NCBI GenBank assembly: GCA_030655145.1
Contig: JAURWD010000047.1
Location: 1 to 45,696 of the forward strand
Direction: 5' to 3'
Source: Ferruginibacter sp.
Lineage (GTDB): Bacteria; Bacteroidota; Bacteroidia; Chitinophagales; Chitinophagaceae
DNA: 45,696 nt
The position numbers and the translations under genes are program-made. Positions 18,788 through 27,463 of this stretch are shown here, in pieces (position 1 is the stretch's first letter; the number at the start of each line of letters is the position of its first letter). The notes beneath the pieces are model-generated. The model was given only the letters and a program-made list of their open reading frames with translations. It had not been told where the DNA came from and ran no database searches.

Positions 18788-19303
18788 TTAAAAGAAGAGC
18801 ATGATCAGCGTAAGCACAATTCCCGCCAGGGTAAAATACATACCTTTTTTAAAGATGGAGGTCTTGGGCATAAACATCCAAAAAGAAGAGATCACGAAAA
18901 ACAAGAGTGATACCCCGAAGAAAATGTTGAGATAGAATAGGGGATCCTTGGTGGTCGCCTTGTGGAGGTGATTTAGTTTTTCCACCAGTTTGGGCAGCGA
19001 GGTCACGGTGTAACTTGTTGCGCCGGTCTTTATATTATATGTGCCTTCCTTAAAACTCTGCACGTCGCCATTGAGTGCCGTGAATTTTAGATTTCTTACC
19101 CTGGTTTCCTTTCCCAGGGCCTCGGCTGATAGACCGGGTTCAAATTGTTTTTCAACCTTCGTTTCTTTTTTCAGGAATTTGGTATCCCTGAAGATCATGA
19201 TCACCCCGCTGAAGGCATACACGGCCATGATGCCTGCGAGAAAGAATCCTAAATAGCGGTGATATATCCGCATGGTATTATTAACTGTGGCTCGGGTACT
19301 CAT
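18788..19303 (-). CDS. PepSY-associated transmembrane-type protein
   Basis: A 171-residue inner-membrane protein. A short basic cytosolic start (RIYHRYLG) leads into a first membrane segment FFLAGIMAVYAFSGVIMIF, the pattern of PepSY-associated membrane proteins. A periplasmic domain of about 75 residues follows, with a NLKFTALNGDVQSF...Y core like a single PepSY module. Two further membrane segments (IFFGVSLLFFVISSFWMFM and GMYFTLAGIVLTLIMLFF) close it. It is much shorter than the usual iron-uptake-linked PepSY_TM proteins (350 or more residues). Role unknown; an iron or redox link is only a family hint. Confidence 0.72.
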   Translation of the reverse strand: MSTRATVNNTMRIYHRYLGFFLAGIMAVYAFSGVIMIFRDTKFLKKETKVEKQFEPGLSAEALGKETRVRNLKFTALNGDVQSFKEGTYNIKTGATSYTVTSLPKLVEKLNHLHKATTKDPLFYLNIFFGVSLLFFVISSFWMFMPKTSIFKKGMYFTLAGIVLTLIMLFF

Positions 19304-19576
19304 TTTTTAGATTTGTGCAAAGAAAAGAAACCTTTTTCTCTGAAGACGGAAATCCATTTACAAAAACGGGAAAAATTTGAAGCTGCGCCTGGAACCATAT
19401 CCTGGCTATCAAATTCCCTTTTTTCAACTAAAAAAATTCAGCCAACTGTAAAATGCACATCAACAAATAAGTGGAGATTGAATGGCAGCCTACGCTACAG
19501 GGTAATTTCCGGGCTAAGTTCAACCGATCAATCCATGCGCTCACTAAAAATATTTTTCAAAATATTATGTTATTCT

Positions 19577-19606
19577 TTGGAGTTTAACATTAACCTTGTA
19601 CATTTG
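19577..19606 (+). promoter_or_regulatory. Bacteroidota-type promoter of the leader-SusC-SusD-DoxX operon
   Basis: TTG (19577-19579, preceded by T) is followed after exactly 19 bases by TACATTTG (19599-19606), a full match to TAnnTTTG. The start site should fall near 19612. This would give a leader of close to 390 nt before the SusC start codon. It is the best promoter in the window by eye. Confidence 0.75.
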
Positions 19607-19624
19607 TCTACCAAAATAGTAGAC
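19606..19624. promoter_or_regulatory. operator-like palindrome GTCTAC-N7-GTAGAC at the transcription start
   Basis: GTCTAC (19606-19611) and GTAGAC (19619-19624) form perfect arms; with one mismatch the match extends to TT/AA outside. It begins at the last base of the -7 box and covers the predicted start site, so a bound dimer should block initiation. Arm size and AT-rich centre would suit a small dimeric repressor such as an Rrf2-type protein. The regulator is not in the window. Confidence 0.6.
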
Positions 19625-19702
19625 TAAAGAAAATGCTACTTTTTTGCACACTGTTAACCACCAGCATTGTGCAATTATTTTTATCGATTAAATAAAAATG
19701 AA

Positions 19703-19789
19703 ATGACATTCTCATTCAACGTACAATCAATTGTACCGGTGGCCATGCCCAACAGTTTAAGTTTCATGCGAAGCTGTTGTTGTTGCTGA
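19703..19789 (+). CDS. putative cysteine-rich leader peptide (28 aa, ends CCCC-stop)
   Basis: An open frame of 28 codons starts at an ATG after an A-rich run and ends FMRSCCCC followed by TGA. The four final codons are TGT TGT TGT TGC (19775-19786). In-frame ATG codons at 19745 and 19766 would give shorter versions with the same end. A three-codon ATG-AAA-TGA (19698-19706) overlaps its start. Four consecutive cysteine codons just before the stop are very unlikely by chance and recall the cysteine-rich leader peptides that attenuate sulfur genes in mycobacteria. It lies 211 bp before the SusC start, inside the leader of the promoter at 19577. It most likely senses charged tRNA-Cys by ribosome stalling. 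Its expression is not proven. Confidence 0.62.
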   Translation: MTFSFNVQSIVPVAMPNSLSFMRSCCCC

Positions 19790-20000
19790 TCCTGATGCAG
19801 GCTGTTTAACCAGCCTCGATCTTCTTCCATATTTCACTGAATAAATTCATTGGCATTCCGCTGCAGCCTGTATTCCATACAGCAACTGGTGGTTAGTTAC
19901 CTGTATGTTTTACGGGTTGCGGCGAGGCCATACCTAATAGATTGCTGTCCTGTCAAAAAATGACCTGCTGCAATCGTATGCCCGTAAAATTAAATTGTAA
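19790..20000 (+). promoter_or_regulatory. structured leader RNA between leader peptide and SusC (candidate attenuator)
   Basis: Visible pairings: AGGCTG (19799-19804)/CAGCCT (19811-19816); CTGTAT (19868-19873)/ATACAG (19877-19882); and GATTGC (19940-19945)/GCAATC (19970-19975) enclosing GTCA/TGAC with an A5 loop. GTTGCTG over the last Cys and stop codons (19782-19788) can also pair with CAGCAAC (19880-19886), which excludes the CTGTAT hairpin. A ribosome stalled on Cys codons would prevent that pairing. No T-run follows any stem, so control would be translational or Rho-dependent rather than a simple terminator. Confidence 0.45.
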
Positions 20001-23000
20001 ATGAAAAAATATATTATAAATAGCTTTCTTATCCTGCTGCTCGCGGCACCTTCAATTGCCCATGCTCAAAGTCCGCAAAAAGAGAATCCGCCACACATCA
20101 ATTCTATTTTAACCGGGAAGGTTGTTGATGGTAAAACACAGCTACCGCTGGAAGGAGCAGTGGTGAAGATCAAGGGTACCACGCATGAAGTGCTTGTTGA
20201 TAATAAGGGTGATTTCAATTTTAAAACCGGACAGATCTATCCCTATACCCTGGTGGTATCCTATGTTGGATATGAAACGGTAGAAGTTACTGCGAACGAG
20301 AATTCGATCAGGATCGCATTGTCCACACAACCAAAACAACTGGATGAAGTGGTGATGGTAGGTTATGGTTCCCAGAACAGGAAGAGCGTAGTCGGTGCAA
20401 TCACCAAGGTGAATGCGCAGGAGACCAAACATTTTCCCGTTGCAAGTTTCGATGCACAGCTGCAGGGAAAAGCGGCAGGAGTTCAGATCAATACTTTTTC
20501 CGGTACGCCGGGAGAAAGCGTACGGGTGCAGGTTCGCGGAACAGCGTCCATCAACGCAAGCAATGATCCGCTGTATGTGATCGACGGAGTATTGGTAAAT
20601 AACAATTCTTTGGCGACCATTGACCTGGGTAGCAAAAAGACATCGCCGCTGGCAGACATTAATCCTGCCGACATCGAAAGCATCGAAGTGTTGAAAGATG
20701 CGAGCGCCATCGCCATTTATGGATCGCGTGGTTCAAACGGTGTGATCCTGGTAACAACTAAACGCGGAGAATACAATTCGCCGCGTACAAAATATAATTT
20801 AGATATCTCCCAGGGATGGCAAAAAGCTGACCCGGGCCGGCTCTGGAAACTGACTACCGGTGCCGAACACGCGACAATTGTAAATGAACAATGGGTCAAC
20901 TCCGGCCTTGATCGCCCGAGCCTCAATCAAACTTATGCAAACCGGCCCTTTCGTCCTGTAAACGAGGTGATCAACGGCGTGGCCGGAAGGGGTAATCCTG
21001 GAGAACAACAAACCTACGATCGCCTGGACCGGGTCTTCCGCACTGCACAAATAAAAAACTACGATTTTAATGTCCTGGGCGGAAGTGAAAAGGTGCGGTA
21101 CAATATCGGTGCCGGCTATTCGAACCAGGAAGGTATTTTACAACCGGCAAGGTTTGAAAGAGCAAGTGCGAAATTTAATTTCGATGCAAAACTTTCTTCC
21201 AGAATTGTTTTCAGTTCAAGCAATGGCATCTATCGTTCGTTTCGCCAGCAGGTAAGGGGAGGAGCGGGCCAGCAGGCCGGGCATCTATTGGCAGCCCTGC
21301 ATCATCCTACTTACCTTCCATTGTACAATGCGGACGGTACTGCGGCGCGTGGGTCCATCTATGAGAATATTGATAACCTTACCAATACGGACATCACAAA
21401 TATTTCAACTAAAAGTCTTCGCTACATCGGGAGCCAGTATATTGAAGTTGACCTCATGCCCGGCTTGAAATTTAAATCATCCGTAGGGCTCGATTACAAC
21501 AATTATAATGAGAGCGAATTCTTCAATGACCAAACGATCATTGGCGGAGCGCCAAACCCACCGGGTTATAGAAATGATGTGCTGACCACGCTGTCGGTAT
21601 TCCAGGCTGACCAGTTGCTCTCTTACAATAAAAAGTTGAATGGCAACCATACCATCACCGCCTTGTTGGGTAATAGCCTGCAGTCAACCAATGTCAGCAT
21701 CACTTCGGCCAAAGGCCAGGGGTTTCCAAATAATTCTTTTAAACAGATCGCGGCAGCCTCCGTCAGGACCTCTTCTCAGAACCAGTCAAAATCCACCATC
21801 GCATCTTTTTTTGGAAGGATAAATTATAACCTAAGCAACAAGTATTTCTTCGAAGCCTCACTAAGGGCTGACGGTTCTTCGAAGTTTGGCGCAAACAACA
21901 AGTGGGGATATTTTCCTGCGGCGGGATTTTCCTGGAGAGCTAAGCAGGAAGATTTTTTACAGGATGTTAAATGGGTTTCGGATCTGAAAATTCGCGGAAG
22001 TGTTGGCCTGGCCGGGAATCAAAACGGCATCAACGACTATGCTTCCCGCGGGCTGTGGACGGGCAATGTGCAGTACCCGGATAATCTCACCAGCGGACCT
22101 CGGGCAGGCATTGCGCCCTGGCAGTTGGAAAACCCCGACCTGAAATGGGAACGTACTACGACTTACAACCTGGGGTTAGATCTTGGCTTATCAAACAATG
22201 CCATCTTTATTAACCTCGATGCGTATTACAAAAACACGAAAGATGCCCTTTTATTTCTACCCGTTCCAGGTTCTACCGGTTACGGTAGCACGCTGTCGAA
22301 CGCGGGTGAGGTAAGTAATAAAGGAATTGAATTAGGGATCAGTACAACGAATATAAAAAGCCAGGCTTTTGAATGGACGACGAGTTTCAACATTTCACGC
22401 AATGTGAACCGGGCGGAGAAATTATTGACGCCCATCACTTTTGAAGCGCGGGAATACCGCCGCACCGAAGAAGGCGCCGCTCTCGGGAGTTATTGGTTGT
22501 ACAAACAATTGTCTGTGGACCCACAAACCGGCAATGCTATTTTTGATGATCTAAATAAGGATGGAAAACTCACGCAGGCAGACCGCCAGCTGATGGGGAA
22601 TTTGCTGCCGGATTATTTTGGTGGACTCACCAATGATGTTACTTACAAAGGGGTTGAACTAAATGTGTTATTCACTTACCAATTTGGCAACGAGGTTTTC
22701 AACTTCAATAAATATATACTGGAGGGCGGCGGTACCCGCGATGCTTCAAGGTCGATTTTAGCCAGCCAGTTAGACCGGTGGCAAAAGCCCGGCGACCTCA
22801 CCAATACCCCCCGCGTAACCAGTGTCGGCAACAACTACAACATTGAACAAAATAGCCGCTACCTCGAAGACGCCTCCTTTGTTCGCTTGAAAGCTGTGAC
22901 GCTCGGTTATACACTTCCAGCAACTTTGACGGCAAGAGCAGGTATCAAAAAGTTAAGCCTGTATGTACAGGGTACCAACCTCTTGATCGCAACAAAATAT

Positions 23001-23114
23001 ACCGGCGCTGATCCCGAATCTTCTGGCAGCGCAACGCAAAATCTCGATGGGCTTGATACGGCTACACCACCACAACCAATTGGTCTCCAGGTGGGCGCAC
23101 GGGTATCTTTTTAA
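20001..23114 (+). CDS. SusC/RagA-type TonB-linked outer-membrane transporter
   Basis: A 1037-residue TonB-dependent transporter with a signal peptide (residues 1-22, ending HAQ), an N-terminal carboxypeptidase-like domain (LTGKVVDGKTQLPLEGAVV to YVGYETVEV), the plug with the SusC hallmark DEVVMVGYGSQNRKSVVGAI and IESIEVLKDASAIAIYGSRG, and a beta barrel ending in VGARVSF with C-terminal Phe. It pairs with the SusD-like lipoprotein 22 bp downstream to import a ligand. No sigma/anti-sigma gene is adjacent, and there is no extra N-terminal signalling domain. It contains no cysteine and only four methionines, which is strikingly low, and it lies behind a cysteine-codon leader. Substrate unknown. 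Confidence 0.95.
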   Translation: MKKYIINSFLILLLAAPSIAHAQSPQKENPPHINSILTGKVVDGKTQLPLEGAVVKIKGTTHEVLVDNKGDFNFKTGQIYPYTLVVSYVGYETVEVTANENSIRIALSTQPKQLDEVVMVGYGSQNRKSVVGAITKVNAQETKHFPVASFDAQLQGKAAGVQINTFSGTPGESVRVQVRGTASINASNDPLYVIDGVLVNNNSLATIDLGSKKTSPLADINPADIESIEVLKDASAIAIYGSRGSNGVILVTTKRGEYNSPRTKYNLDISQGWQKADPGRLWKLTTGAEHATIVNEQWVNSGLDRPSLNQTYANRPFRPVNEVINGVAGRGNPGEQQTYDRLDRVFRTAQIKNYDFNVLGGSEKVRYNIGAGYSNQEGILQPARFERASAKFNFDAKLSSRIVFSSSNGIYRSFRQQVRGGAGQQAGHLLAALHHPTYLPLYNADGTAARGSIYENIDNLTNTDITNISTKSLRYIGSQYIEVDLMPGLKFKSSVGLDYNNYNESEFFNDQTIIGGAPNPPGYRNDVLTTLSVFQADQLLSYNKKLNGNHTITALLGNSLQSTNVSITSAKGQGFPNNSFKQIAAASVRTSSQNQSKSTIASFFGRINYNLSNKYFFEASLRADGSSKFGANNKWGYFPAAGFSWRAKQEDFLQDVKWVSDLKIRGSVGLAGNQNGINDYASRGLWTGNVQYPDNLTSGPRAGIAPWQLENPDLKWERTTTYNLGLDLGLSNNAIFINLDAYYKNTKDALLFLPVPGSTGYGSTLSNAGEVSNKGIELGISTTNIKSQAFEWTTSFNISRNVNRAEKLLTPITFEAREYRRTEEGAALGSYWLYKQLSVDPQTGNAIFDDLNKDGKLTQADRQLMGNLLPDYFGGLTNDVTYKGVELNVLFTYQFGNEVFNFNKYILEGGGTRDASRSILASQLDRWQKPGDLTNTPRVTSVGNNYNIEQNSRYLEDASFVRLKAVTLGYTLPATLTARAGIKKLSLYVQGTNLLIATKYTGADPESSGSATQNLDGLDTATPPQPIGLQVGARVSF

Positions 23115-23136: not shown

Positions 23137-24444
23137 ATGAAACTCAATCAACTTCTGTCTATACTTTTATTTAGTGTCTTTCTTACTTCCTGTGAAAAAT
23201 ACCTTGATGTTGAACCCTTTGATACGGTCTCTGATGAGAACACCATTTTTGATAAGGCCTCGGCTGAAACGGCTGTTCGGGGCGCCTATCGCTCTTTGGC
23301 CAGTAGCAATTACGGCAGCGCTTTCCAGGGTGCGGTTTTACAATCTGGCGGGGACATTCGCTCCCTGAACAATGCACAATCAGACCTGAATGTGATCAAT
23401 TACGACCTGCGGTCAGACATTGGTTTTTTGTCCACCCTCTGGTCAAATTTTTATAATACCATCAACCGGGCAAATCATGTGATCGAAAAAGTTCCGCAGA
23501 TCGAAGATGTGAAATTGAACAGCGGCTTAAAGAATCAATTGATCGGTGAAGCGTATGTCATCAGGGCCTTGTCTTACTTCGACCTCGCAAGATTATTCGG
23601 CAACGTGCAGGTGTTTTTGACCCCGACAAAAATAGTTTCCGACAGGCTGGGGGTTAAACAGAAAACACAGGCCCAGGTGTTTGACCAAGTGGTAGCTGAC
23701 CTGGACACTGCCATCTCTTTATTACCGGATGACGTCGTACGAAACCGGTCGCGGAGATCGACGGCGCTTGCCTTACGCTCGCGGGTCTATCTCTATCAAC
23801 AGAAATATGCCGAAGCCGAAGCCGACGCGAATACGGTCTTATCAAATCAACAATACCGCCTGATGAAGCCATTTGCCCTTGCAGCAGGAACACCGGAATC
23901 GATTCTCGAACTCGCCTATAGCGTGGATGCTGTAAATGCCGGTTATGCACTTTGGAATACGAGTAACCGTGCGTTGGAACCAAAAGCCTCTGTACATAAT
24001 TTATTGAACGACGCTGAAGTTGGTGGAGGACGAAAACTTTTATCGGTCGCTAACAATGCCGGCCAGTTCATCGGCGGCATATTCCCAACAAATACTGCTT
24101 CTAATTACGTGATCAGGACCGCGGAGCTCTACCTCATCCGGGCCGAGGCCCGCGTTCAAAAAGCGGAGCCTGATTTTGAAGGCGCAATATCCGATGTAAA
24201 TGCCGTGAGAGCAAGAGCCGGCGTTGCTAACAGTTCCGCCTCCACGAAGCAGGATATTTTGGTATCCATCGAAAATGAACGTCGGGTTGAATTTGCGTTG
24301 GAACCATTTCGTTGGTTCGACCTGGTTAGAACCGGCAGGGCTGCTGCCATGCTGAACGCGACCAACCCGCAAAAATATATTTTCCCGATCCCGGCTTCGG
24401 AGATTATCGCCGATCCGTCACTGGTGCAAAATCCCGGCTACTAA
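23137..24444 (+). CDS. SusD-like substrate-binding lipoprotein
   Basis: A 435-residue surface lipoprotein with lipobox FLTSC (Cys19) followed by EKYLDVEP, the standard SusD start. TPR-like helices (SRRSTALALRSRVYLYQQKYAEAEADANTVLS) and the C-terminal block ENERRVEFALEPFRWFDLVRTG, then YIFPIPASEIIADPSLVQNPGY are typical of RagB/SusD proteins. It is shorter than the usual 500 or more residues. It acts as the lid over the SusC barrel and binds the ligand outside the cell. Apart from the lipid-bearing Cys it has no cysteine, and only three methionines. Co-transcribed with SusC. Confidence 0.93.
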   Translation: MKLNQLLSILLFSVFLTSCEKYLDVEPFDTVSDENTIFDKASAETAVRGAYRSLASSNYGSAFQGAVLQSGGDIRSLNNAQSDLNVINYDLRSDIGFLSTLWSNFYNTINRANHVIEKVPQIEDVKLNSGLKNQLIGEAYVIRALSYFDLARLFGNVQVFLTPTKIVSDRLGVKQKTQAQVFDQVVADLDTAISLLPDDVVRNRSRRSTALALRSRVYLYQQKYAEAEADANTVLSNQQYRLMKPFALAAGTPESILELAYSVDAVNAGYALWNTSNRALEPKASVHNLLNDAEVGGGRKLLSVANNAGQFIGGIFPTNTASNYVIRTAELYLIRAEARVQKAEPDFEGAISDVNAVRARAGVANSSASTKQDILVSIENERRVEFALEPFRWFDLVRTGRAAAMLNATNPQKYIFPIPASEIIADPSLVQNPGY

Positions 24445-24478: not shown

Positions 24479-25906
24479 ATGAGTGAATTACTTTTCAAAA
24501 CAGCAGACACCCCTTTGAAAAAATTGCAGTTGCCGTTTGCCAATATTTTCTCGAGTATTGCCGGCCCAACGCAAACATTCAACGCATGGACGAGCCTGGA
24601 AAAGATCGTGTTCCGTTTCTTTTTTATTTTTCTCCTCCTGTTGGTGCTGCCCATCGACTGGAAAATATTCCGGCAGTTATTCAACATTAACTGGAGCCGC
24701 TTACACTTCCACGAATTGTTTGATCTGTCGAAATACCAGGTACAGTTTATTGCCGAACAGCATTTACCAAAATGGGGTATTGGCGCATTTGCAAACTGGG
24801 GCATCGCCGCGGTTACCGCTGTCGCGGGAACGGTTGCCTGGACGAGGCTTGATCCTCATACAAAGGAGTATGCGGTGTTGTATTATTGGTTACGCGTGGT
24901 GGTTCGTTACCGGCTGGCGTTCGTACTCATTACCTATGGTTTTATCAAGTTGTTCCCGCTGCAGATGCCTTACCCATCGCTCAGCAACCTGCTCACGAAT
25001 TACGGTGATTTTTTTCCCTGGAAGATCTATTTTCAGACGGTGGGCATCGCGCCCAAATACCAGTCATTCCTCGGTTTTGTCGAAGTGCTTTCTGCGTTCT
25101 TATTGTTTAACAGGAAAACAGTAACATTTGGCGTGGGCCTCATTTTTGGCTTTATTGGCAACGTGGCTGTCGTTAATGGGTTGTATGATATTGGTGAGCT
25201 CGTGACGAGCACCTTTATCGTGTTGCTCGCATCCTTTTTATTCGTGAACGACATTCCTCGCTTGTACCGGTTGCTCATAAACGAATTACCTACCAGGGCC
25301 AACAAACTCGTGCCCGATTTTACGGATCCGCATTTAAAAAAGCTGCGCTTATTTGGCCGCTCGGCCTTCCTGTTGTTTACTGTTTTGTTTGCCTACCGTG
25401 CATTGGATAGTTATGCGAATGATCCTTATAAAATTCCAAAGACGCCTGGGCTCACTGGCGCGTATGGATATTACAACGTAAAAGAATTCGTGCTGAACAA
25501 CGACACGATTCCTTATTCAAAAACAGATTCCTCCAGGTGGCAGGACGTGGTGTTTGAAAAATGGTCAACCATGACGGTGAAATCAAACAAGCCGGTAAAA
25601 ATCGATTTCTCCAGCGGCGAAATTGCCGCGGAAAAAGACATCGACCGAAACTATGAACTCGCTGGTCACGCCGGCCGCCATTATTTTTATTACGAAGCCG
25701 ACACTCTCCATCAATCTTTGTCGCTCCAGAATAAAAACATTCATCATCGTGCGGAGAAAATGTCTTTGCACTACAGCCGCCCAAACGATTCTACAATAGT
25801 CTTAAACGGCATCAATGAGGATAGTGATTCACTGCACGTGGTATTGGTCAGGATCAACAAAAAATACCTGATGCTGGAAGGCCGCCGTAAACCAGTCAAG
25901 ATCTAG
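24479..25906 (+). CDS. DoxX-family membrane protein with C-terminal soluble domain (paralogue 1)
   Basis: A 475-residue inner-membrane protein starting 34 bp after SusD. About seven or eight membrane segments (for example IVFRFFFIFLLLLVLPI, WGIAAVTAVAGTVAW, LAFVLITYGFIKLFPLQM, FGVGLIFGFIGNVAVV, TSTFIVLLASFLFV) match DoxX-like proteins, with RLAFVLITYGFIKLFPLQMP as the characteristic segment. After the last membrane span a soluble domain of about 150 residues begins at PKTPGLTGAYGYYNVKEF. The next gene is a clear paralogue with the same layout. DoxX/DoxD proteins are known as thiosulfate:quinone oxidoreductase subunits in Acidianus; whether this distant form does that is unknown. It contains no cysteine. 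Confidence 0.8.
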   Translation: MSELLFKTADTPLKKLQLPFANIFSSIAGPTQTFNAWTSLEKIVFRFFFIFLLLLVLPIDWKIFRQLFNINWSRLHFHELFDLSKYQVQFIAEQHLPKWGIGAFANWGIAAVTAVAGTVAWTRLDPHTKEYAVLYYWLRVVVRYRLAFVLITYGFIKLFPLQMPYPSLSNLLTNYGDFFPWKIYFQTVGIAPKYQSFLGFVEVLSAFLLFNRKTVTFGVGLIFGFIGNVAVVNGLYDIGELVTSTFIVLLASFLFVNDIPRLYRLLINELPTRANKLVPDFTDPHLKKLRLFGRSAFLLFTVLFAYRALDSYANDPYKIPKTPGLTGAYGYYNVKEFVLNNDTIPYSKTDSSRWQDVVFEKWSTMTVKSNKPVKIDFSSGEIAAEKDIDRNYELAGHAGRHYFYYEADTLHQSLSLQNKNIHHRAEKMSLHYSRPNDSTIVLNGINEDSDSLHVVLVRINKKYLMLEGRRKPVKI

Positions 25907-25948: not shown

Positions 25949-27463
25949 ATGTCAAACGTAGTTGCCACGCTTCCTCCAACCGTTTTGCAACAGGAAGAAA
26001 CATCCACCCGGCAGATCATTGCGCAAGCAAAAAGCAGGTGGACGAACAAAGAGAAACTGGTGTTCAGGATCGCATTTCTCTACATTCTTTTTTTGTGTAT
26101 ACCAACCTACGCGGCTTTCTACACGCATTTGTCTGGACTTAAATTGTCCACGATCACCTATCACGATTTTCAATCGATTGTTGCTTTCTGGCCACCGCAA
26201 ATTATCCTGATCGAATCTGAAGAAGGCGTGTTCGGACTGTTTAATTACATCAACCTGTTTTTATTATTGGTAGCTGCCGTTGTGGCTGGATTAGTATGGA
26301 CGCTGCTCGACAAGAAATCGATCAACTATAGTAAACTCTATTACTGGATCAGGGTACTGGCAAGGTACCGCCTCGCGTATGGCATGATCGGGTGGGGATT
26401 AAAAAAAGCATTTCCCATGCAGATGGTTCTTCCTACTGAAGGAATGCTTAATACATCCTTCATCGATTTCGCAGAAAAAAAATTGTATTGGAGCCACGTA
26501 GGCGTTTCCTTCAATTATACCGTTTTTCTCGGCTTTGCCGAGATACTTCCCGGCTTGTTGTTGTTGCACCGAAAGACCGCCGTGTTGGGCGGGACACTTG
26601 CCGCAGTAGTGACCTTCAATATCTGTATTGCCAATCATGCTTATGACGCCGGCGTTGCAGTACCGGCCGCCTATTTTGCCATCCTCGGAATTTTTATTGC
26701 CTGGTCCGATTTGCCGAGGATCTGGCAGTTGCTGGTACATGAAAAAGATGTGTTGCAGCCATACCGATACTACCCGGTCTTGCCGGAAAAATGGCAGCAG
26801 TATTTGTGCAATGGACTCAAGCTTACTTTCAATTTTATTTTTGTGGTGCTTGCTGCTGCGGCCTGGGGCTACGGCTTTTTTAATGGCAACAATTACAATA
26901 TACCCAGCACACCTGGGCTGGCGCAAACTAAAGGATATTATTCCGTTAGTTCCTTCCAGTTGAATCATAAAGAAATCCCGTTTTCGCCCCAGGATTCCAT
27001 TCGCTGGCAGGATGCAATTTTTGAGGGCTGGTCAACGCTGAATTATAAAACAAACCGGGGTGCCATCGCTGACCGCATGATCGGTTACTCGCCGCTTCGC
27101 GTGAAGGGAGACAAGGCGAACAGTAAATTGAACCAGGTAAATACGCAGGACTCTGATAAATTAAAAAAAGAGAAAAAGAACAGGGATCTCGGTGTTACCC
27201 GCTGGGAGGTTGGGGGCATGGCCGGTGACCGGCGCTATTTCTTTTACAAAGCCGATACGGTGAAGCAGGTGTTGTACCTGCAGAATAAAAATAAGTACCA
27301 CAAAGATGAACAGCAGGTGTTGCATTACGAACGGCCGAGTGCAACCCGCATCGTATTAAGTGGCGTGAATGAATTCAAAGATTCTATCAGGGTCGTGTTG
27401 GATAAGGTGGATAAAAAATACCCGTTGGTAGAAGGCAGGCAAACTGCCGTCGAAGCATTTTAA
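25949..27463 (+). CDS. DoxX-family membrane protein with C-terminal soluble domain (paralogue 2)
   Basis: A 504-residue paralogue of the preceding protein, starting 42 bp after it. The membrane part (IAFLYILFLCIPTYAAF, LFLLLVAAVVAGLVWTLL, YRLAYGMIGWGLKKAFPMQM, AVLGGTLAAVVTFNICIAN and others) aligns segment by segment with the first copy. The soluble domain shares PSTPGLAQTKGYYSVSSF, SIRWQDAIFEGWSTLNYK and LYLQNKNKYHKDEQQVLHYERP. It has an extra charged insert of about 40 residues (DKANSKLNQVN to KKNRDLG) absent from copy 1. Three cysteines are all in or near membrane segments. The pair may form a heterodimer. Last gene of the operon. Confidence 0.8.
   Translation: MSNVVATLPPTVLQQEETSTRQIIAQAKSRWTNKEKLVFRIAFLYILFLCIPTYAAFYTHLSGLKLSTITYHDFQSIVAFWPPQIILIESEEGVFGLFNYINLFLLLVAAVVAGLVWTLLDKKSINYSKLYYWIRVLARYRLAYGMIGWGLKKAFPMQMVLPTEGMLNTSFIDFAEKKLYWSHVGVSFNYTVFLGFAEILPGLLLLHRKTAVLGGTLAAVVTFNICIANHAYDAGVAVPAAYFAILGIFIAWSDLPRIWQLLVHEKDVLQPYRYYPVLPEKWQQYLCNGLKLTFNFIFVVLAAAAWGYGFFNGNNYNIPSTPGLAQTKGYYSVSSFQLNHKEIPFSPQDSIRWQDAIFEGWSTLNYKTNRGAIADRMIGYSPLRVKGDKANSKLNQVNTQDSDKLKKEKKNRDLGVTRWEVGGMAGDRRYFFYKADTVKQVLYLQNKNKYHKDEQQVLHYERPSATRIVLSGVNEFKDSIRVVLDKVDKKYPLVEGRQTAVEAF

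Follow-up and report, generated by a model that had tools for sequence, protein, structure and literature searches.

Comparison of homologous upstream regions points to a cysteine-codon leader and a sulfur-regulon operator before a SusC-SusD operon of Ferruginibacter sp.

In the classical attenuators of the trp, his and ilv operons, a run of one codon lies near the stop of an upstream open reading frame (uORF), together with competing helices. CymR is an Rrf2-type sulfur regulator with a palindromic operator before cysteine genes. Accounts of how SusC/SusD import is controlled usually centre on transcriptional regulators that sense sugars. 'Polycysteine-encoding leaderless short ORFs' were reportedly described by Canestrari in 2020. 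For actinobacterial cys operons, leader peptides with cysteine (Cys) codons are known; no conserved terminator was found for them, and Rho was suggested (Seliverstov 2005, PMC1262725). In Bordetella, the uORF CruR controls a TonB-dependent transporter, and Rho-dependent termination was shown between the uORF and the receptor. CruR is a DUF2946 protein with a CXXC motif and a RAPP arrest motif and senses copper (PMC9426467). Here, we analyzed a stretch of 45,696 nt from Ferruginibacter sp. (contig JAURWD010000047.1 of assembly GCA_030655145.1; this whole stretch is called the window), in which a short frame ending in four Cys codons precedes an operon encoding SusC, SusD and two membrane proteins. 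A Bacteroidota or SusC case of a Cys leader peptide was not found in our search of open-licence papers. We propose, with a probability of about 0.72, that the leader is a two-level sulfur switch, in which a regulon operator and ribosome stalling at Cys codons would control the SusC operon.

The short frame had been picked out in an earlier note, which was made from the letters of the window and read it as the core of a cysteine-responsive attenuator. Its description holds. The 28-codon frame at 19703-19789 is translated as MTFSFNVQSIVPVAMPNSLSFMRSCCCC and ends in SCCCC-stop, with TGT TGT TGT TGC at 19775-19786 before the TGA at 19787-19789. Possible inner starts are ATG 19745 and ATG 19766. 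The promoter described upstream of SusC (TTTG, 19 nt, TACATTTG) is present as well. It was labelled by a consensus which we take to be that of Bacteroidota, and a comparable TTTG...TACATTTG arrangement is visible in most of 11 aligned Pedobacter leaders. The leader had been given as almost 400 nt; from the inferred start point to the SusC ATG at 20001 it covers about 390 nt. A palindrome immediately 3' of the -7 box was absent from the earlier note.

The 15-mer pattern TGYTGYTGYTGYTRA has five matches in the 5.3-Mb genome (reversed-pattern control: 0), and the four further CCCC-stop matches sit in chance-looking frames. Such a frame in one genome alone is weak evidence, while homologous upstream regions are strong evidence, and therefore the same operon was collected from relatives. 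At E ≤ 1e-30, 29 of the 147 family genomes contain membrane protein 1; 20 stretches were taken, and the gene order SusC-SusD-membrane protein pair is present in 13 of these relatives. From a collection of named genomes, the best 80 of 265 confirmed candidate loci were added. Three of them lack SusC, so that the window, the 13 family relatives and 77 named loci gave 91 upstream regions (L083 with only 281 nt), of which 81 remained after removal of near-duplicates.

A Cys mini-ORF was defined by at least three Cys in the last 12 codons and a position within 500 bp of SusC. Such frames occur in 55 of the 91 upstream regions (antisense 6; shuffle mean 5.0, maximum 9) and in 47 of the 81 non-redundant ones (antisense 6; shuffle mean 3.4, maximum 7). 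Stricter patterns separate further from the controls. Frames with CCC are found in 38 of the 81 non-redundant regions (antisense 0; shuffle mean 0.3, maximum 3), and frames with CCCC in 24 of 81, with none in antisense and none in each of 40 shuffle rounds. Among the residues forming triple runs in such frames, Cys comes first (38 regions) and Leu second (16). Tails of homologous uORFs include CCCCC, CYCCACTCC, CCYCCS, DCCCCK and HCCCCSMQ. As a same-genome control, 30 of 57 SusC matches were taken as loci, which left 28 upstream regions after one that was too short and the window itself had been set aside; at least three of these (L197, L202, L206) belong to gene fragments, so that their upstream region is not a true leader. 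None of the 28 has a CCC frame, and one has a frame with three scattered Cys. Conservation of the Cys run in homologous leaders was the check named in advance, and with 47 of 81 regions the idea survived it.

Counted before duplicate removal among loci with a genus name, the Cys frame is present in 13 of 13 loci of Mucilaginibacter and 13 of 16 of Pedobacter, in both loci each of Ferruginibacter, Longitalea, Niastella and Sphingobacterium, in the single loci of Flavobacterium, Larkinella, Daejeonella, Cnuella and Paracnuella, and in one of two each of Pontibacter and Dyadobacter. Both Cys codons are used (TGT 165, TGC 67). In 41 of the 55 frames no more than one codon separates the last Cys from the stop, and the spacer from the uORF stop to SusC measures 104-350 nt, with a median of 246 nt.

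The palindrome next to the promoter has the form TCTAC-N7-GTAGAC. At no more than one mismatch, TCTAY-N7-RTAGAC occurs in 50 of the 91 upstream regions vs 8 of 910 shuffled ones; site and Cys frame are combined in 35 regions, 15 have the site only, 20 the frame only and 21 neither. In the genome of the window (G000) it gives nine matches at six places (reversed control: two). Sites were identified before the genes for siroheme methyltransferase (SUMT), CysJ and CysI (sulfite reductase), before TauE-siroheme genes, before a second TonB receptor, in one intergenic region of contig C321 and in the gap that separates an Rrf2 gene from the divergent peroxiredoxin gene. Six relatives have 18 matches at 17 places vs 3 for the reversed pattern. 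The neighbours there include PAPS-reductase-domain (CysD-type), siroheme, tetrapyrrole-methylase, PALP (CysK-type) and TonB-receptor genes; no obvious sulfur gene adjoins the sites L245, L250, L254, L255 and L257, and site L258 lies upstream of a further SusC that has no Cys frame before it. By this comparison the operator is shared with cysteine genes, which would place the operon in a cysteine/sulfate-assimilation regulon governed by a presumed protein. Two loci carry a palindrome right before SusC with no space for a leader (L114, exact, at -48; L085, two mismatches, at -67), an arrangement that resembles the uORF-less loci of the second receptor.

The regulator acting at the operator may belong to the Rrf2-family repressors, an assignment that we regard as tentative. 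An Rrf2 orthologue is present in 14 of 14 relatives. Beside its start, the operator was found in the genome of the window and in two relatives of the same genus (G126, exact; G034, one mismatch), and was not found there in the other 12 of the 14. In G009 and in G109, a second Rrf2 paralogue is located some 10 kb away from the receptor. At L277:2224 (G077:C201), an exact palindrome stands about 300 bp past the 3' end of a second Rrf2 paralogue, and the same contig carries the SusC-SusD-pair operon of that genome.

In relatives, the company of the operon also includes sulfur genes. In both relatives' loci tested, the sulfite dehydrogenase SoxC (TIGR04555) scores above its curated cut-off, and a gene for cytochrome c and one for a transporter of the YeiH type (PF03601, with TIGR00698 under its cut-off) are also present in relatives' loci. 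Among 75 loci of at least 16 kb, 37 have a SoxC-like gene, 47 a YeiH-like gene and 64 either of them, on the same strand but not always downstream. Neither SoxC nor YeiH is matched in the window itself. In L098, L123, L130 and L145, genes for a SoxC-type sulfite dehydrogenase, a cytochrome c, a YeiH-type transporter and a CrtO-like oxidoreductase lie beside the membrane-protein pair, and such company is seen in many loci. That the downstream genes serve sulfur or cysteine metabolism is thus suggested indirectly, by the operator common to cys genes and by the SoxC and YeiH neighbours.

Cys frames were also found in other gene contexts. For the second TonB-receptor class (L066:1553 in the genome of the window), 30 homologues (L213-L242) were searched within 300 nt. 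Frames with the same count of three or more Cys within the final 12 codons are present in 11 of 30 homologues (antisense 0; shuffle mean 1.05, maximum 4), and CCC frames in 4 of 30 (antisense 0; shuffle 0). Two of the 11 are doubtful, since those of L226 and L227 are located over 190 nt upstream, apparently inside the preceding gene. Examples are RCCCIAKAF in the genome of the window, QRCCCTK, ECSCCCG and SCCRCCSHKNIFF. This receptor class sits in a cysteine cluster, and part of its members have the palindrome plus a Cys uORF; several loci show an extra palindrome just before the receptor start, others only that one. In G119 (L246:1501-2002), the palindrome and a 19-codon leader, MTISLASKHTYCCCCGPSF, precede an 89-aa protein without a significant Pfam match. 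On the other side of this palindrome, a sulfatase-modifying-factor gene (PF03781) diverges. The earlier note had tied the Cys leader to the SusC/SusD operon. It is present there, but this scope was too narrow, because Cys uORFs occur before other genes too. Since they are also seen before the second receptor class and the small protein, such uORFs can serve in a search for sulfur genes.

Recurrence of the Cys frame, recurrence of the operator and the presence of sulfur genes nearby were all observed across the compared loci, and they support the reading of the leader as a cysteine attenuator. Because the frame recurs before the same operon and the site is shared with cysteine-synthesis genes, the cell probably uses the Cys frame to sense cysteine shortage and to switch on sulfur uptake. 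For translation of the uORF, the stalling and the step from the stall to SusC, we infer the following course. At the first level, the palindromic operator over the start point would put the operon under the cysteine/sulfate-assimilation regulon. At the second level, the leader would encode a short peptide, of which only the frame and the Cys cluster at or near the stop are clearly kept. When Cys-tRNA is scarce, the ribosome would stall on 19775-19786, and the stalled ribosome would either block premature termination in the spacer or allow a permissive fold of the leader. Intrinsic termination at weak hairpins, for example 19799-19826, and Rho-dependent termination are both conceivable. SusC, SusD and the two membrane proteins would then be made, and the operon would import a sulfur compound. 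With ample cysteine, the ribosome would finish at 19789 and leave, and expression would fall.

For the last step, premature termination is our first choice, because 13 of the 55 uORF-to-SusC spacers contain a terminator-like hairpin (shuffle mean 2.9, range 1-5) and C exceeds G after the stop. In the 80 nt past the uORF stop, this excess is seen in 44 of 55 leaders (window +0.125; whole-leader mean 0.015), and for this reason Rho-dependent termination is possible as well. A single uniform intrinsic terminator was not seen; the enriched hairpins sit at differing places, and the hairpin of the window has a poor T-run. The window RNA from 19620 to 20040 folds better than its shuffles (z = -4.09). 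With ribosome-masked folding, the accessibility of the SusC start in the window was 0.71 free, 0.58 with a stalled ribosome and 0.49 with the ribosome at the stop, so that the change from stalled to stop is small and in the expected direction. Helix C as a sequestor gained no clear support from masked folding. The conservation of the competing helices of the window was judged from few relatives only. A clear switch of start-codon sequestration by the position of the ribosome was not found, as masking the ribosome had little effect in the 13 leaders folded.

Several observations weigh against a two-level switch at these leaders. The Cys frame is missing in 34 of the 81 non-redundant upstream regions. 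By genus, it is missing in all nine loci of Chitinophaga, in all four of Runella, in both loci each of Spirosoma, Fibrisoma and Siphonobacter and, with one locus each, in five further genera. Apart from Chitinophaga and Runella, it is absent from 11 of 14 loci that we take to belong to the Cytophagales. L098, L099 and L146 have the operator but no Cys frame. Substitutions in the uORF show no third-position bias (46/55/43 by codon position, redundant pairs included), so that coding of the uORF is not proved in that way. In 42 of 55 spacers no terminator-like hairpin is seen. C also exceeds G in the 60 nt that precede SusC, in 47 of 55 leaders. In 12 other leaders, masked folding with the ribosome stalled and at the stop differs by no more than 0.06.

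Part of the missing frames carries no information. In L101, L103, L115, L117, L132, L138, L126 and L133, a long sense frame reaches to within 70 nt of SusC; these eight negatives are uninformative, because by its neighbourhood SusC is not first in its operon there, and six of the eight belong to Chitinophaga. From the substitution counts, purifying selection on the whole uORF peptide was rejected. The peptide drifts outside the Cys cluster, as would be expected of a leader peptide whose frame and Cys codons alone matter.

The leader RNA might have a further part in the switch. Nine leaders were chosen for having an [AU]ACCACC loop, and in eight of them, all except L046, a perfect partner of the 7-nt loop (G-U allowed) lies downstream; in the window, the terminal part of P3 contains GGUGGUU (19888-19894), the complement of the P1 loop. 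Here, as in some other leaders, the two complementary loops flank the uORF. In L071 and L072 the first loop pair is U-A in place of A-U, and within Ferruginibacter AACCACC/GGUGGUU has changed jointly to UACCACC/GGUGGUA. Among the eight leaders with a partner, L106 and L135 (Runella) have no Cys frame and the frame of L037 has a single Cys. The P1 motif was rejected as a repeated element: it has eight exact matches in nine genomes, two of them outside these leaders (L292, L294) and with no operator or GGTGGT partner nearby. Matches with one mismatch are frequent and not informative. We consider it possible, though rather doubtful, that the ribosome on the Cys codons controls a kissing-loop contact between P1 and P3. 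Operator, codon sensor and tertiary RNA switch would then form a new attenuator architecture, and our literature search found none of this kind.

That the leader RNA is itself the sensor, like a riboswitch, with the P1-P3 kissing loops as its core and the uORF as an accessory, seems improbable to us. The loop partners and the joint A-U to U-A exchange favour such a sensor, and so do compensatory changes, judged by eye, in a different conserved SusC-proximal hairpin pair of Pedobacter and Mucilaginibacter. However, the kissing pair is found in a minority of leaders, the SusC-proximal sequences differ among clades, and the loci searched contain no Rfam leader family at gathering score (none in the window and in 10 of 13 family relatives' loci, only tRNA in 4 of 80 named loci). 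L076, L088, L109, L130 and others carry a conserved two-hairpin RNA with the loop motif CGYAACGSCAATCACTYA in the 130 nt that lead up to SusC. This motif was rejected as a general leader of SusC genes and is nearly specific to the leaders compared here: it has 12 matches at no more than one mismatch in 11 genomes, ten of them in these leaders. Elsewhere it was found in L155 and L169; L108 has it only at two mismatches, and the genome of L116 has none.

About as small is the chance that the uORF encodes a metal- or redox-sensing arrest peptide like CruR, in which the nascent Cys cluster would bind copper or another thiophile and, in place of the Cys-tRNA level, set ribosome release. The position of a Cys-rich uORF before a TonB-dependent receptor is that of Bordetella CruR (PMC9426467), and a PepSY_TM-like gene lies upstream. 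This gene (window 18788-19303, minus strand) diverges from the SusC leader and scores 26.7 bits vs a Pfam cut-off of 28.8. On the other hand, CXXC with a C-terminal RAPP is missing, the Cys pattern is loose (CCCC, CCYCC, CYCCACTCC, CNFTCC), and with Cys at the stop most Cys would still be within the ribosome. The operator common to sulfur genes and the SoxC in relatives' loci also speak against this reading.

If the frame encoded a Cys-rich micropeptide with a function of its own, such as a metal or thiol carrier, and were merely co-transcribed, its recurrence across genera would be accounted for, but this is very unlikely given the drift of the peptide outside the Cys cluster and the lack of synonymous bias in the compared pairs. 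Regulation wholly at the operator, with the Cys frame as a by-product, agrees with the 15 of 91 regions that have the operator without the frame and is equally hard to accept, as Cys frames recur far beyond shuffles and in other gene contexts.

The features of the window are listed in Table 1. The earlier note had named SusC and SusD, which profile matches bear out, and had called the two membrane proteins DoxX. This label was rejected, since neither protein matches any Pfam family even at E ≤ 1. The structure model of membrane protein 1 (mean pLDDT 80.8) has no match in the PDB at E ≤ 0.001 by Foldseek; the nearest entries are lipocalins and designed barrels (best E 2.4e-3, non-significant), and GGCX follows at 0.04. 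A match to protein 2 beyond protein 1 is present in 75 of the 80 named loci, while the other five are loci on other coordinates. In some loci a cyanophycinase-like S51 gene follows SusD.

Table 1. Features of the leader and the operon in the window
Feature	Position	Strand	Remarks
Predicted Bacteroidota-type promoter	19576..19606	+	TTTG 19576-19579, 19-nt spacer, TACATTTG 19599-19606; from sequence
Putative palindromic operator TCTACCAAAATAGTAGAC	19607..19624	.	directly 3' of -7 box, over expected start point
P1 hairpin	19644..19674	+	7-nt loop AACCACC (19656-19662); motif TGTTWACCACCARC exactly once in own genome
Candidate Cys leader peptide uORF	19703..19789	+	ATG 19703, 28 codons; conserved in homologous leaders
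Predicted competing helices	19794..19924	+	A 19794-19805:19863-19874; P3 19859-19872:19911-19924
Terminator-like hairpin AGGCTGTTTAACCAGCCT, tail CGATCTTCTT	19799..19826	+	9 nt past uORF stop
Helix C, possible sequestor	19907..19990	+	19907-19917:19980-19990; excludes P3; ends 10 nt before SusC ATG
SusC/RagA TonB-linked outer-membrane receptor	20001..23114	+	TIGR04056, E=2e-228
SusD-type lipoprotein	23137..24444	+	PF07980 and PF14322
Membrane protein 1 (DoxX in earlier note)	24479..25906	+	no Pfam/NCBIfam match; model: helix bundle plus C-terminal barrel
Membrane protein 2	25949..27463	+	paralogue of protein 1, 36% identity

If the two-level switch is true, a leader that counts charged Cys-tRNA would gate the import of a sulfur source through the outer membrane by translation, and Cys-codon attenuation would extend from Actinobacteria to Bacteroidota. 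It would also delineate a sulfur regulon whose operator can be read from the sequence, and offer a starting point for finding the substrate of the widespread operon of SusC, SusD and membrane proteins.

Compared with known systems, the leader of the window resembles the classical trp, his and ilv attenuators in its run of one codon near the stop and in its potential competing helices. It differs from them in that the codon is Cys and that no uniform pair of terminator and antiterminator was found. With the CymR system it has in common a palindrome before cysteine genes and a site in the same genome that adjoins an Rrf2 gene; as a difference, the site stands beside the Rrf2 start in only 2 of 14 relatives, and binding here is putative. 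As in CruR, a uORF precedes a TonB-dependent receptor, here known from sequence comparison, and the CruR motifs (CXXC plus a C-terminal RAPP) were not found in the peptide of the window. Unlike the leaderless polycysteine ORFs, the uORF of the window is not leaderless, because it lies away from the expected start point, and its leader contains hairpins. With the actinobacterial cys leaders it shares a short ORF whose Cys codons come close to the stop and which is placed ahead of sulfur genes. In contrast to these, the window belongs to another phylum, the target is SusC/SusD import through the outer membrane, and a regulon operator is added to the leader.

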